A model generated the notes under the pieces. It was not told the DNA's origin, did no database searches, and saw nothing but the letters and a program-made list of their open reading frames with translations. Of a stretch of 64,000 bases of DNA, positions 46,384 to 51,868 are shown in pieces. Source of the DNA: Dolichospermum sp. DET69 (GTDB lineage: Bacteria > Cyanobacteriota > Cyanobacteriia > Cyanobacteriales > Nostocaceae); assembly GCA_017355425.1 (NCBI GenBank), contig CP070233.1, positions 412,501 to 476,500 on the forward strand, written 5' to 3'. The stretch's first letter is position 1. Each line of letters starts with the position of its first letter. Made by a program: the position numbers and the translations under genes.

Positions 46384-47352
46384 ATGACCTATTTAGAAAC
46401 CGCAGCCAAATTTTACAGCCAAGTTGCTCAAACACCAGAAATAGGATTGTGCTGTGTTCAAAGTACGCCTTTACAATTACCAGGGTTGAAAATTCCTTTA
46501 GCTATGCAGGAGATGAACTATGGTTGTGGAACTACAGTACATCACAATGAACTCACTAATGAACCTACAGTTTTATATGTTGGTGTTGGCGGTGGCTTAG
46601 AAGCTTTGCAATTTGCTTATTTTTCTCGTCGTCCTGGTGCAGTAATTGCTGTTGAACCAGTGGAAGCCATGCGAGAAGCTGCAACGCGTAATTTGCAAAT
46701 TGCAGCAAAAGAAAACCCTTGGTTTGATCCTAGTTTTGTGGAAATTCGTCCGGGAGACGCTTTTAATTTACCTATTGCTGATGCTTCAGTTGATATAGTC
46801 GCGCAAAATTGCCTGTTCAATATTTTTGAACCGACAGATTTAACTCTGGCTTTAAAAGAAGCATATCGGGTATTGAAACCAGGTGGACGTTTGCAGATGA
46901 GTGACCCAATTGCTACGAGTCCTGTTCCTGGACATTTACAACAAAATGAACATTTACGCGCCCTTTGTTTGTCCGGTGCTATTACATATCAAGAATATAC
47001 TCAACTGATTATTAATGCTGGTTTTGGACAAATTGAAATTCGCGCTCGTCGTCCTTATCGCTTATTAGATAAACATACTTATAAACTCACAGAAAATCTG
47101 CTTTTAGAAAGTCTAGATTCTGTGGCTTTTAAAGTAGAAATTCCCGCAGATGGTGCTTGTATTTTTACTGGTAAAACCGCGATTTATGCAGGTAAGAAAG
47201 AATTTTTTGATGATCAAGCTGGACATATTTTGCAACGTGGTATTCCTGCGGCAGTTTGTGATAAGACTGCCAAAAATTTAGCAATTGCCAATCCTGAAGA
47301 AATCATAATTACTGATTCCACATGGTATTATGATGGTGGAGGCTGTTGTTAA
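46384..47352 (+). CDS. arsM: Arsenosugar-pathway arsenite methyltransferase ArsM
   Basis: A 322-residue SAM-dependent methyltransferase. The SAM site is VLYVGVGGGLEALQFAYFSR, with DAFNLPIADASVDIVAQNC and LKPGGRLQMSDP further on. The N-terminal block (YFSQ-like FYSQVAQTPEIGLCCVQSTP and MNYGCGTTVHHNEL) and the C-terminal GGGCC are characteristic of the cyanobacterial ArsM that works with ArsS in making arsenosugars. Cys residues that bind As(III) are present (GLCC, YGCG, GACIF, GGGCC). Its usual partner arsS lies 3.5 kb downstream with other genes in between. Confidence 0.9.
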   Translation: MTYLETAAKFYSQVAQTPEIGLCCVQSTPLQLPGLKIPLAMQEMNYGCGTTVHHNELTNEPTVLYVGVGGGLEALQFAYFSRRPGAVIAVEPVEAMREAATRNLQIAAKENPWFDPSFVEIRPGDAFNLPIADASVDIVAQNCLFNIFEPTDLTLALKEAYRVLKPGGRLQMSDPIATSPVPGHLQQNEHLRALCLSGAITYQEYTQLIINAGFGQIEIRARRPYRLLDKHTYKLTENLLLESLDSVAFKVEIPADGACIFTGKTAIYAGKKEFFDDQAGHILQRGIPAAVCDKTAKNLAIANPEEIIITDSTWYYDGGGCC

Positions 47353-47647: not shown

Positions 47648-48472
47648 TTAAAACTGCGATTCTCGAATTTCCTTTTGTAAAGCCTGAATTTGTGCAAGAG
47701 ATAATTCAGTAACTTCAGAAATTTGTTGTAAATTCATGCCAGTTCGTAACAATTTTAAAGTAAACTTTCTGGTTGCTTCAGCTTCACCTTCTTGTTTACC
47801 TTCAGCTTTACCTTCAGCTTTACCTTCTTCCAAAGCTTCTTGATAAACTCTGGTTTGTTTCAACTCACTTAAACCTAGCATAGCTTCAATCTCCTCTCTG
47901 CTTTTTTTGGGTAATTTGTAAACGATAATTGTCTCAATCAGATTAATTAAATCCCGTTTGATTTTGGTATCAGTTAGTTGTTGGTTTGCTTGTGCAATTA
48001 AACGTTTTGCTAATGCTGGTGCAGCCTTCTCTGTTTCTACTACCAGTTTAACAACTCCCACCCCTAAAGAACTCACTCCCAACTCATCTAAGTAAATGCG
48101 TGTAACTCGCTCAAGTAGCAAGATTTCCCCAAATTGTAAATTCTGTTCTCTTTCTATATTACGACTAGGATAGATGATTACAGCTTGCCAAGGGTGAGGA
48201 GTTTTGTATTGTCGCAGGTAGAGAAAAAGCTCTGCAAAGAGACGATAATATAAATTATCATCGGGTTGAAATTGAACCTCGACAATGTAAAACGGCTTTT
48301 TGGGATCTTTGGTGGTTGGTAAAAATAAACCGTCTAAACGAAAAGCTAGTTGTTTAACTTCACGAGAGGTAAATTCATAAACATCTGCTTCTGTGGGAGA
48401 ATTATTAATTAATTCAAAGAAAATGCTCGGAAATGCTTGAAATAAGCTATAGAAAATAGTATCTGTTTTCAC
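47648..48472 (-). CDS. Rpn-family (DUF2887) nuclease-like protein
   Basis: A 274-residue protein of the DUF2887/Rpn PD-(D/E)XK group. It begins FYSLFQAFPSIFFELINNSP, then LAFRLDGLFLPTT (Asp) and PFYIVEVQFQPDDNLYYRL (the E-x-Q strand), the likely nuclease core. A run EGKAEGKAEGKQEGEAEATR precedes a helical end with RTGMNLQQISEVTELSLAQI. Such proteins are abundant in cyanobacteria and are associated with recombination or mobile DNA. It lies on the opposite strand between arsM and the TIR pair. Confidence 0.8.
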   Translation of the reverse strand: MKTDTIFYSLFQAFPSIFFELINNSPTEADVYEFTSREVKQLAFRLDGLFLPTTKDPKKPFYIVEVQFQPDDNLYYRLFAELFLYLRQYKTPHPWQAVIIYPSRNIEREQNLQFGEILLLERVTRIYLDELGVSSLGVGVVKLVVETEKAAPALAKRLIAQANQQLTDTKIKRDLINLIETIIVYKLPKKSREEIEAMLGLSELKQTRVYQEALEEGKAEGKAEGKQEGEAEATRKFTLKLLRTGMNLQQISEVTELSLAQIQALQKEIRESQF

Positions 48473-48796: not shown

Positions 48797-49294
48797 ATGC
48801 CTAAACAAGATCCCGCAAAATTAAAAAAGGTATCCATTAGTCTTCCTTTTGGTATTGGTGCTGCGGAATGGGAATCTGACACAACAGAAAGGAAAGCCGC
48901 TTGGTCGTTGTATGTAGAACTGGTGACACGCATTGCTGTCCAGTCGTTAGAAGTTGACCAGGGGTTGGTGCGGGAAGCGTTGAATTCTTTGTATAGTTTA
49001 TTCGGAACTACCCGCGAAATTCTCAAAGTGGCTGGACCTGATGTGGGTGCTTCTAAGAACTCAGTCGGGGGTATTGCTATTGCGGTGTTGAATAATGGGT
49101 TGCGACCATTTTTAGCTAAATGGCATCCTATTTTACAGGCTTGGGAAGCAAAACGACCTGTAGGGGTGAGTGTTAAAGAACATGAGATGGGTTGGTCAGA
49201 AGAATCAAAGTTGCGAACTGAGTTGGCTGCTTTGCGAGGTGATTTAGAAGAGTATGCGAAGGCTTTGGCGATTATTTCAGGTGTGGAGGAGTAA
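48797..49294 (+). CDS. Unknown protein coupled to the TIR-lectin gene
   Basis: A 165-residue protein that I cannot assign to a named family. It is almost wholly helical: SISLPFGIGAAEWESDTTER, then AAWSLYVELVTRIAVQSLEV, LVREALNSLYSLFGTTREIL, VGGIAIAVLNNGLRPFLAKW and a C-terminal helix with coiled-coil character (EESKLRTELAALRGDLEEYA). No catalytic motif or membrane segment is seen. Its stop is 1 nt before the ATG of the TIR gene, and its last codons supply the Shine-Dalgarno (GGAGGAG), so translation is coupled. By context it is a regulator, adaptor or antitoxin-like partner of the TIR protein, which is inference. Confidence 0.75.
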   Translation: MPKQDPAKLKKVSISLPFGIGAAEWESDTTERKAAWSLYVELVTRIAVQSLEVDQGLVREALNSLYSLFGTTREILKVAGPDVGASKNSVGGIAIAVLNNGLRPFLAKWHPILQAWEAKRPVGVSVKEHEMGWSEESKLRTELAALRGDLEEYAKALAIISGVEE

Positions 49295-49295
49295 A

Positions 49296-50630
49296 ATGTC
49301 TGATAACCAACTACAATTTGATGTTTTTCTTGCTCACAATAGTAAAGATAAACCCGAAGTTATAAAAATTGCCAACAAACTACGAGAAAGTGGTTTAAAT
49401 CCTTGGTTAGATAAGGAGCAAATTTTTGGTGGAGACAATATTCACGAAGTTGTTTTTCAAGGAATTTCGCAGTCTAAAGTAGGTGCTTTTTTTATTGGAC
49501 AAAATAGCTTGGGATCTTTTCAGAAGAATTTAGAACTTGGTGCAATAATACAATTTTTTTTGGAGAAAAAAGAAAAAGGTTTTCGGGTGATTCCCGTTTT
49601 ACTTCCTGGTATCAGCGATATTCCAAATGAATTATTTCATTTAAAACAGTGGGCTTGGATTAAATTTACTAATTCAAATATTGAAGAAGATGAAGAAGCA
49701 CTACAGGATTTGATCCGTGGTATTAGAGGACGAGAAAAAGTTATTCTAACGCCGCCATTAGTAACAACTACAAAATTATATAACTTAAGAAGTTTCCAAT
49801 TTGAAACTTTTCAGATAAATAAGAGTGGGAAAGAAATTAACCGCATTACCAAAAACGCAGATTATTTTGACCAAAACTTGGGAAATGGTGTAAATTTAGA
49901 AATGGTAGCTATTCCTGGAGGGACTTTTATCATGGGTTCTCCAGAAAATGAGGAAGGTTATGATTCTTCTCAAAGTCCACAACATCAAGTTACTGTTCCC
50001 CCGTTTTTCATGGGTAAATATCCAGTTACTCAAAAACAATGGCAAGCTGTAGCTGTACTGGAAAAGGTTAAGATTGATTTAGAATCTGATCCATCTAAAT
50101 TTAAAGGTGATAATCAACCTGTTGAGCGTGTATCATGGGATGATGCTCAAGAGTTTTGTGCCAGACTCTCCCAAAAGGCAAATAAAATTTACCGCTTGCC
50201 TAGTGAAGCAGAATGGGAATATGCTTGTCGTGCAGGAACTACTACCCCGTTTTATTGTGGGGAAACAATTTCTACAGATTTGGCTAATTATAATGGTAAC
50301 TACACCTATGGACAGGGACAAAAAGGAGAATATCGAAAAAAAACCACAGTGGTAGGAATTTTTCCGGCCAATCCTTTTGGTTTATATGATATGTGTGGTA
50401 ATGTGTGGGAATGGTGCGAAGATGAGTGGCATGAAAATTATATAAATGCGCCTATAGATGGCAGTGCTTTGACAAGTCTAATTGTTAACAGCAAGCTGCT
50501 GCGCGGTGGTTCGTGGATCAACGGTCCTGGGAGTTGCCGGTCTGCTTGTCGCTACTACTACGACCTCGACTACTACATCAACGATATTGGTTTTCGGGTT
50601 GTATGTAGTGGTGCGGCGAGGACTTATTAG
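49296..50630 (+). CDS. TIR domain plus SUMF1/C-type lectin protein, candidate DGR target
   Basis: A 444-residue protein from the ATG at 49296, with GGAGGAG 8 nt before it. The N-terminal TIR domain (about 8-140) has FDVFLAHNSKDKPEV (alphaA start) and an ELGAIIQFF helix where catalytic TIRs carry their Glu. TIR domains cleave NAD+ or make signal nucleotides. The C-terminal domain (about 205-440) is SUMF1/FGE-like (C-type lectin fold): LEMVAIPGGTFIMGS, MGKYPVTQKQWQA, VERVSWDDAQEFC, YRLPSEAEWEYACR, GNVWEWCEDEW, RGGSW, GFRVVC. The first FGE catalytic Cys is replaced by Asn409; the second is at Cys414. The last 40 codons have DGR variable-region character. Site: cytoplasm, no signal peptide. Confidence 0.88.
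   Translation: MSDNQLQFDVFLAHNSKDKPEVIKIANKLRESGLNPWLDKEQIFGGDNIHEVVFQGISQSKVGAFFIGQNSLGSFQKNLELGAIIQFFLEKKEKGFRVIPVLLPGISDIPNELFHLKQWAWIKFTNSNIEEDEEALQDLIRGIRGREKVILTPPLVTTTKLYNLRSFQFETFQINKSGKEINRITKNADYFDQNLGNGVNLEMVAIPGGTFIMGSPENEEGYDSSQSPQHQVTVPPFFMGKYPVTQKQWQAVAVLEKVKIDLESDPSKFKGDNQPVERVSWDDAQEFCARLSQKANKIYRLPSEAEWEYACRAGTTTPFYCGETISTDLANYNGNYTYGQGQKGEYRKKTTVVGIFPANPFGLYDMCGNVWEWCEDEWHENYINAPIDGSALTSLIVNSKLLRGGSWINGPGSCRSACRYYYDLDYYINDIGFRVVCSGAARTY
50502..50618 (+). other. Candidate DGR variable region (VR) at the 3' end of the TIR-lectin gene
   Basis: Codons 403-441. Codons 420-430 read TACTACTACGACCTCGAC, TACTACATCAACGAT. All five Tyr codons here are TAC, while 11 of 13 Tyr codons before the region are TAT. 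Such NAC/NTC runs are what adenine-directed mutagenesis of AAC-rich template repeats yields. The position after GGSW and before GFRVVC is where DGR-diversified lectin folds carry their variable loop. A GC-richer tail (GGTGCGGCGAGGACT) follows, as in many cyanobacterial DGR targets. No template repeat or reverse transcriptase is in the window. Confidence 0.65.
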
Positions 50631-50841
50631 CACTCTACACTCTTGCTCTTTTGCGCTCTGCGCTCTTGATTCTTTTCACTTCTCTAGCGTAACGGAGTGG
50701 AGCGATCAAAAATATTTTATTTAGATTTCGGGAATAACTGATGAGTTGTTCCTCCATGATATAGGAAACTTTCGATTTAGTCAAGTGGTATGTCCCAATT
50801 ATCAATAGTTTGCCACTTCCCGCTGTCTCTTCGGTTGAATG

Positions 50842-50860: not shown

Positions 50861-50887
50861 ATGGAAATTCGTGCTAGAGATGCTTCT

Positions 50888-51868
50888 ATGATTACACCTT
50901 TTTTTCAGCAGCTAAATTCACCTTTGACAAAAAAGCAAATCAATGTTTTACAAATTAATTTAGGAAAGCGTTGTAACCTAGCTTGTAACCATTGCCATGT
51001 AGAAGCTAGTCCCAAAAGAACTGAGGAATTAACACCGGAAATTTGTCAACAATTAATCACTTTAATTGAAAGATTTCCACAAATCAAAATTGTTGATTTA
51101 ACTGGTGGCGCTCCAGAAATGAATTATGGTTTTAAGTTTCTGGTACAAGCTGCTAGAAAATCAGGTAAACAGGTAATTGTCAGATCAAATTTAACAATTT
51201 ATTTTGTTGATGGATTTGAAGATTTACCAGATTTTTTGGCTCAACATCAAGTAAAGATTGTTGCTTCTCTACCCTGTTATTTAGCCGATAATGTGGATAA
51301 AATGCGGGGAGATGGTGTTTTTGATCAATCAATCAAAGCTTTGCAATGGTTGAATAAGTTAGGTTATGGTCAAAACCCGAATTTAATTTTAGATTTGGTG
51401 TATAATCCGCAATTACCAAATAGTGCAGATTTTTCTCTAACTCCTGAACAGCAAAATTTAGAAAGGGCTTATAAAACCTTTTTGATAGAGAAATTTGATA
51501 TTCGATTTAATCATCTTTTCACAATTACTAATATCCCTGTGGGGAGAACAAAGTTTCATTTAGAAAGAAAACAGCTTTATTTTAGCTATTTGCATTTTTT
51601 AGAGTCTCATTTTAATGCAAAAACAATTGATGGTTTAATGTGTCTTGAACAACTTTCTATTGATTATTTGGGGAATATTTATGATTGTGACTTTAATCAA
51701 ATGATGAATTTATCTGCAAAAACTAGCAATGGTGAAAAGTTGACAGTCAGTAAATTGTTGGAAATTGGTAGTTTAGATATAATCAAGGAAATCCAAACTG
51801 CTGAATATTGCTATGGTTGTACTGCGGGGGCTGGTTCTAGTTGCGGTGGTGCTATTAGTATAAATTGA
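50888..51868 (+). CDS. arsS: Arsenosugar biosynthesis radical SAM protein ArsS
   Basis: A radical SAM enzyme of 326 residues from the ATG at 50888 (MITPFFQQLNSPL). An upstream in-frame ATG at 50861 directly abuts a MITE end and is less likely. The radical SAM CxxxCxxC motif is RCNLACNHCHVEA, then TGGAPEMN; the C-terminal auxiliary Cys cluster is CYGCTAGAGSSCGG, preceded by DCDFN. ArsS acts after ArsM to join the 5'-deoxyadenosyl group to dimethylarsinous acid, giving an arsenosugar precursor. In most cyanobacteria it follows arsM; here it is separated. Confidence 0.93.
   Translation: MITPFFQQLNSPLTKKQINVLQINLGKRCNLACNHCHVEASPKRTEELTPEICQQLITLIERFPQIKIVDLTGGAPEMNYGFKFLVQAARKSGKQVIVRSNLTIYFVDGFEDLPDFLAQHQVKIVASLPCYLADNVDKMRGDGVFDQSIKALQWLNKLGYGQNPNLILDLVYNPQLPNSADFSLTPEQQNLERAYKTFLIEKFDIRFNHLFTITNIPVGRTKFHLERKQLYFSYLHFLESHFNAKTIDGLMCLEQLSIDYLGNIYDCDFNQMMNLSAKTSNGEKLTVSKLLEIGSLDIIKEIQTAEYCYGCTAGAGSSCGGAISIN

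Follow-up and report, generated by a model that had tools for sequence, protein, structure and literature searches.

The TIR-FGE gene at 49296-50630 ends in the variable region (VR) of a diversity-generating retroelement (DGR), whose differences from the template repeat (TR) of a same-genus genome lie mostly at template adenines. The chromosome holds three such type-A VRs together with a degraded remnant; the matching cassette occurs in a sister genome and on a plasmid, and none was found in this assembly. We consider it probable that this gene serves a cyanobacterial DGR as a remote target, under a scheme in which a visiting mutator would rewrite tagged recipients and in which the FGE domain would bind ligand, with the TIR domain as output. 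Here, the window is the whole 64,000-nucleotide stretch that was analysed (C1:412501-476500 of Dolichospermum sp. DET69, genome G000), and statements on cited papers refer to excerpts of their text.

Excerpts of Vallota-Eastman 2020 (PMC7517822) describe cyanobacterial DGRs with remote C-type-lectin-like (CLec) targets, a CLec C-terminus fused to kinase, TIR, caspase-like and other domains, and plasmid-carried DGRs in Anabaena sp. 90 and Fischerella NIES-4106. Published work thus already covers cyanobacterial remote targets, their fusion to TIR and caspase-like domains and carriage on plasmids, and also a conflict-system role (PMC10907252). Our case resembles those of PMC7517822 in its remote VRs, its TIR, caspase-like and kinase fusions and its plasmid carriage; however, each remote target there was attributed to a DGR within its own genome, whereas here the template was found in relatives and none in the own genome. 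The recipient tag and the exchange of effectors and VRs within a single slot, both described below, go beyond the excerpts of that paper.

Adenine-specific differences at the end of a TIR-FGE gene

Pfam places a TIR_2 domain at residues 10-140 (E 1.4e-19) and an FGE-sulfatase domain at residues 202-436 (E 6.8e-59) of the 444-aa protein (Table 1). In an alignment with the NAD hydrolase AbTIR, Glu80 of the TIR domain falls on a Glu that we take to be the catalytic residue, and the domain may be an NADase. In the FGE domain, Cys414 (codon 414, TGC) is retained, while the position of the other active-site Cys, which we assume from human FGE numbering, falls within the variable codons 408-410. The loss of the first catalytic Cys that the initial annotation had named depends on this numbering. 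The solved DGR target TvpA of Treponema denticola (PDB 2y3c), likewise FGE-like, matches the protein with E 5.4e-20; the best stretch of this match spans residues 296-437, and only FGE sequence is covered, with no match on the TIR. A structure prediction of the protein was discarded at a mean pLDDT of 67.8, with values of 31-38 over residues 401-430.

Table 1. Features in and around the TIR-FGE gene, in window positions.
Feature	Position	Strand	Basis
Left slot flank, presumed methyltransferase	46384..47352	+	Sequence and synteny
165-aa ORF, ends 1 base upstream of the TIR gene	48797..49294	+	Sequence
TIR-FGE (C-type-lectin-like) variable protein, probable remote DGR target	49296..50630	+	444 aa; Pfam and TvpA match
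TIR effector domain	49296..49730	+	TIR_2; Glu80 aligned with AbTIR Glu
FGE/C-type-lectin-like domain, putative ligand binder	49899..50603	+	Residues 202-436
DGR variable region (VR), homologous to type-A template	50496..50620	+	Adenine test
Variable core, codons 408-430	50518..50583	+	First and last adenine-site difference
GGACT at end of VR/TR homology; GCATT in type-A template, first differing base 50621	50620..50624	+	Sequence comparison
Conserved pyrimidine-rich tag, from the TAG stop codon; tract extends to about 50678	50628..50654	+	Pattern search
Right slot flank, presumed radical SAM	50861..51868	+	Sequence and synteny

The initial annotation had read the 3' end as the DGR variable region of a TIR-lectin protein, owing to an abrupt codon switch between the motifs RGGSW and GFRVVC. 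The switch is real and is located where it was placed: codons ending in AC or TC number 20 of the 400 before codon 401 and 12 of the 25 in codons 407-431 (Fisher p 1e-8), and Tyr changes from 11 TAT and 2 TAC before the VR to 1 TAT and 5 TAC in codons 401-445 (p 0.0095). The reading itself was borne out by comparison with the TR of the same-genus genome G002: in the window VR, which belongs to the C-terminal part of this CLec/FGE-like protein, 15 of 33 adenine sites and 2 of 91 other sites depart from that TR (50496-50619; Fisher p 1.3e-8). All 15 adenine-site differences fall within codons 408-430, exactly the span that had been predicted, and they include a third codon position, 50531. Both non-adenine differences, 50540 T->G and 50603 T->A, are at third codon positions; the change at 50603 agrees with the template of plasmid pANA02, leaving 50540 as the single unexplained non-adenine change.

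Searching the genome with the 3' end returned three strong copies, namely the window itself, C1:800270 (-) and C1:5073663 (+). The latter two are the ends of FGE genes that, from their sequence, we presume to be kinase-like. They differ from the G002 template at 18/31 adenine and 3/90 other sites in one case and at 18/33 and 1/91 in the other, with Fisher p values of 1e-8 to 1e-11 across the three VRs. A fourth copy, C1:5068392, is degraded, and its nearest template is of type C (0.89 at non-adenine sites). When 40 type-A VRs were pooled, 633 of 1311 adenine sites differed as against 104 of 3624 others, the second figure being low partly by construction because rows were selected at >=0.90 non-adenine identity, with templates removed.

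Comparison between strains had been expected to show differences confined to the VR codons. The orthologue in G005 displays the predicted codon-position pattern, with differences at first, second and third positions of 10/6/3 in the VR as against 23/23/44 in the linker and FGE domain; the differences are, however, not limited to the VR (0.154 per nucleotide, compared with 0.132 in linker and FGE and 0.060 in the TIR), because the genomes compared belong to different species. In the G002 and G006 counterparts, the TIR part is another TIR.

We further compared 741 pairs drawn from 39 of the 40 type-A VR genes. In pairs at 0.40-0.70 upstream amino-acid identity, fourfold sites are 0.43-0.46 identical and the adenine sites of the VR 0.38, with values of 0.947-0.959 for its non-adenine sites; adenine-site identity remains 0.38 in the closest 24 pairs. 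With VR non-adenine identity near 0.95 as against 0.43-0.46 at fourfold sites, a common template has overwritten the ends long after the genes diverged.

A missing writer and its relatives

As the initial annotation had stated, the window contains neither a template nor a reverse transcriptase (RT), none of the genome's 30 RVT_1 matches lying within it. The genome-wide check proposed there, for an AAC-rich template beside a DGR RT and Avd, came back empty in the two-contig assembly (completeness 99.99%, second contig 200.8 kb): no template repeat appeared among all 28 scored candidates in the genome, and no DGR-type RT among the 30 RVT_1 matches. Of these, 28 are group-II-intron-like (24 called from ORF sequences, four from their scores and frame lengths), and the remaining pair consists of a 1160-aa protein and a 275-aa fragment; the best genome match to a DGR RT has 27% identity (E 3.1e-13). 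No Avd exceeded the 80-bit cut-off in the genome, where the best match, at C1:5660473, reaches 30.6 bits (E 1.6e-6), and matches below the cut-off also occur in 8 of 14 control genomes.

The gene ends in a DGR variable region far from any RT, as had been proposed, but it is not an ordinary remote target served from within its genome, since no writer was found. The initial annotation had named this very outcome as grounds for rejecting its idea; the DGR reading nevertheless survives, because a same-genus genome and pANA02 both carry the matching template, with the differences falling at its adenines. It follows that the writer was lost, was omitted from the assembly or visits on a plasmid. With no writer found, VR change in this strain today is no more than a possibility.

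Several of the genome's RT-related frames merit description on their own. The 1160-aa protein (G000:C1:3895186; L053:8005-11487, -) combines a core resembling that of RTs (YVDD) with extensive additional regions, in contrast to the group II introns, and might be a defence-type RT. The 275-aa frame (G000:C1:1005836; L054:8441-9268, -) covers the first 85 positions of RVT_1 alone and appears truncated. Several of the roughly 28 group-II-intron-like RTs share equal scores and lengths at separate places. The weak Avd match at C1:5660473 is a 213-aa frame that may be a distant four-helix relative.

Using a template inferred from the three own VRs, we searched 100 genomes, the own one included, scoring up to eight candidates in each. 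Matches at E 1e-8 or better were present in 56, and the match at G002:C66:20040, in the same genus, reached 97%, with the others among the matches listed at no more than 89%. This 38.8-kb contig carries two FGE targets, Avd (NF033474, 144.6 bits), a 352-aa RT and the template. The 56-kb plasmid pANA02 of Anabaena sp. 90 (NC_019429.1, 8918-12726) has the same components, with two VRs in its targets, Avd, template and an RT that is 95.7% identical to that of G002. The excerpts of PMC7517822 mention, for the genome of Anabaena sp. 90, a remnant that consists of an RT alone; this may be a locus other than the pANA02 cassette. Five more cyanobacterial plasmids carry related RTs (65-73% identity), of which one is partial. 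Among phages, the DGR RT matched 92 records, all below 60% identity, with no cyanobacterial phage among the best 10 of the 92.

Within the genus, a DGR RT is present in 5 of 16 genomes (E 1e-150 or better), and four template types were distinguished, namely A (G002), B (G005), C (G012) and D (G004); behind the DGR RT of G011, none was seen. Type-A VRs (>=0.90) occur in at least 13 of the 16 genomes (G000, G002, G003, G005-G013 and G015), while the type-A template was found in one of these 13 and a DGR RT is absent from nine, among which G000, G008 and G010 are assembled in one or two contigs. Because the G005 DGR is chromosomal and of another template type, the evidence for plasmid carriage of type A comes from pANA02.

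Beyond the genus, the loci L334 and L336 of a Trichodesmium MAG contain DGR RT matches with one and four in-frame stops, respectively, and VRs persist alongside. No DGR RT was detected at E 1e-40 in 15 of 19 cyanobacterial genomes and MAGs that contain tagged FGE genes, a count that is only suggestive given that many are drafts.

Recipient-specific sequences past the variable region

A pyrimidine-rich tag lies directly downstream of the VRs. A 27-base pattern, built from VR flanks and matched at <=3 mismatches with its reversed form as the control, gave four matches in the own genome, corresponding to the three VRs and the remnant (control, 0), and 84 matches in the 16 genus genomes (control, 1). 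Downstream of FGE-gene ends there are 83 of these 84, of which 81 are located 1-135 bases past FGE genes and two more past VRs (G012:C6, G002:C482); the remaining one, at G010:C1:1315065, follows a truncated VR end. Upstream of the tags, non-adenine identity to the nearest of five templates is >=0.90 in 49 cases, 0.80-0.90 in 23 and lower in 12, and a significant adenine excess (p<1e-3) precedes 76 of the 84, with the truncated end among the eight exceptions. The tag is absent from all 18 template repeats (17 compared by script, all at >=10 mismatches, and the eighteenth, of G004, by eye).

In 47 VRs whose selection did not involve the tag, identity over its 24 bases is 0.76-0.80 between genes at a fourfold identity of 0.44-0.46; identity at +70 to +100 is 0.31-0.33 in 53 tag-selected flanks. 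A looser form of the tag, sought in 80 named FGE loci (717,575 bases), matched 42 times as against twice for the reversed form, and 36 of the 42 matches have a GFR-like FGE end no more than 220 bases away; the genera concerned include Trichodesmium, Calothrix, Scytonema, Planktothrix and Microcystis. The tag varies by template type, reading mostly TTGC...TTGC past type A and C VRs, and TTAC or TTAT...TTAC or TCAC past the type B VRs listed. Searches of the published papers for the tag and for Dolichospermum DGRs gave no report of it. Such a tag could locate DGR targets in the absence of a template or reverse transcriptase.

The homology between VR and TR itself ends in a second difference between recipient and template, as at a BPP-1-like site. 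Recipients at tagged sites read GGACT in 83 of 112 cases, a wobble form in 13 and something else in 16 (background window, 4/111), and in 18 of 18 TRs, inspected by eye, C, T or A replaces the second G. Some tens of bases past the template stands GAGTCC, complementary to GGACTC and kept in 17 of 18 templates. Perhaps the template RNA pairs through GAGUCC with the GGACT of the recipient, leaving the template itself mismatched; the wobble recipients GGATT and GGGTT would fit such pairing. A look for covariation drew on the DGR RT matches of just 4 of 19 genomes, where the readable templates L332, L334 and L336 keep GAGTCC; the L073 template has GAGTTC. The 16 sites that are neither GGACT nor wobble include L195 (TAACT) and L177 (GAACT) of Trichodesmium, as well as L160 (the template-like GCGCT).

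In BPP-1, a GC-rich hairpin/cruciform directly past the VR is needed according to excerpts of Guo 2011 (PMC3240598), and is important but not strictly required according to those of PMC12875486. Our recipients are alike in having a short recipient-specific sequence just past the VR and outside the TR homology, but differ from BPP-1 in that no stem-loop stands directly past the VR, its place being taken by a conserved sequence of 70-88% pyrimidine. None of 52 flanks contains a perfect stem of >=6 bp in -9..+50, the mean longest stem being 3.2 as against 3.0 in shuffled sequence, and folding energy averages -4.1 in the tag region, slightly below the -3.2 of shuffled sequence. At +50..+105, stems of >=6 bp occur at 0.31 as against 0.07 by chance, many of them A/T-only, and a hairpin may thus lie further from the VR than the tag region. 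Target choice could rely on the tag here, in place of the stem-loop used by BPP-1.

Mechanism, alternatives and a slot with exchanged effectors

In the mechanism that we favour, a type-A DGR (Avd, RT and template) would reverse-transcribe its template RNA, placing random bases opposite the adenines, and the resulting cDNA would replace the 3' ends of several FGE genes in the chromosome, in this case at codons 408-430 of the TIR-FGE gene; DGR adenine mutation has been observed in N. punctiforme (excerpts of PMC12691664). The cassette would be a visiting and at least sometimes plasmid-borne mutator that was responsible for recent writing of the VRs and has since been lost or is missing from the assembly. 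Pyrimidine-rich tag and boundary GGACT would mark recipients and help to separate recipient from template, and the FGE domain would bind a variable ligand, upon which the TIR would signal or degrade NAD. The receptors would then stay in the chromosomes while the writer can be absent, so that mutator and receptors are separated. More tentatively, and with somewhat less than even confidence, we picture cyanobacterial chromosomes as a standing library of swappable effector-lectin receptors, each tagged by a pyrimidine-rich site that lacks a hairpin and rewritten in bursts by itinerant plasmid cassettes that could leave the genome again, with the tag and perhaps the GAGUCC:GGACT pairing selecting recipients.

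That the VRs are instead a frozen relic, fixed since the lineage lost its DGR and with diversification over, is a serious possibility that we nonetheless find doubtful. The genome lacks a template, a DGR RT and an Avd over the cut-off, as 9 of 13 type-A-VR genomes lack a DGR RT, and excerpts of PMC7517822 describe a PCC 7120 paralogue with remnant TR-VR homology and no RT genes nearby; yet the loss would have to be recent given the near-95% VR non-adenine identity at fourfold identities of 0.43-0.46, and a mobile writer is simpler than independent recent losses across many lineages. Decay is also not apparent in the VRs, as none of 62 at >=0.85 has a stop codon before GFR, although the collecting pattern demands intact ends and one of the two pANA02 VRs has a one-base gap relative to its template. 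Alternatively, the strain might carry the writer on a plasmid that the deposited assembly does not include, as the cassette of pANA02, the related RTs of the five other plasmids and the single second contig allow; we regard this as rather unlikely in view of the completeness of 99.99% in two contigs and the lack of a type-A template in G005, G008 and G010, each of one or two contigs (best eight candidates each).

Two further explanations would dispense with parts of the mechanism. Ordinary diversifying selection or gene conversion, with no RT involved, would account for the high amino-acid change in the VR, but is very improbable because the changes fall at template adenines (p 1e-8), including the third position 50531, and because the template exists in relatives. 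The tag, for its part, might be a 3'-UTR or termination signal of FGE genes with no homing role: it starts with the stop codon, many flanks have T-runs behind it, stems become more frequent than chance further downstream, and eight of the 84 tags lack a significant adenine excess upstream. This we think unlikely, since 60 of the 141 genus FGE genes have no tag within 400 bases, whereas 45 of the 49 VRs at >=0.90 carry it at <=3 mismatches, three at 4-6 and one at more; moreover, the truncated VR end has retained its tag, and all 84 matches are at FGE or VR ends.

The favoured mechanism has a close counterpart in the DGRs of Thiohalocapsa PB-PSB1 (Dore 2024, PMC10907252), which according to the excerpts of that paper combine TIR and other conflict-system effectors with diversified sensors, act in trans and shuffle domains; unlike here, the acting components there are in the same genome or its variants.

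Domain exchange is directly visible at the chromosomal position of the TIR-FGE gene, a slot whose two flanking genes are syntenic in relatives. We take the left flank to be an arsM-like methyltransferase and the right flank to be an arsS-like radical SAM gene. G005 carries the same TIR as the window with a type-A VR, while G002, between flanks of 94-98% identical DNA, has a different TIR (74% different in protein), also with a type-A VR. A third TIR (59% different) is joined to a type-B VR in G006 (match 0.87), and domains that from their sequence are presumably caspase-like are joined to a type-C VR in G007 and to a type-B VR in G015 (match 0.87). In one slot, TIR or caspase-like effectors thus occur with VRs from three template types, which directly exemplifies domain shuffling combined with hypermutation in bacteria.

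In the remaining genomes, the slot of G008 holds a shortened FGE stretch with no VR match, and no FGE match lies between the flank genes in G001, G003, G009, G012, G013 and G014. For G010 the right flank alone is within the piece examined, and this gene has only a 72% relative in G004 and none in G011. The 165-aa ORF preceding the TIR gene, for which Pfam, NCBIfam and PADLOC gave no family, is found in four of four TIR alleles and is unmatched in two of two caspase-like alleles; it moves with the TIR alleles of the slot and is a candidate TIR partner. The slot also contains a DUF2887 gene (window 47648-48472, -), present in two copies in G015 and G009.
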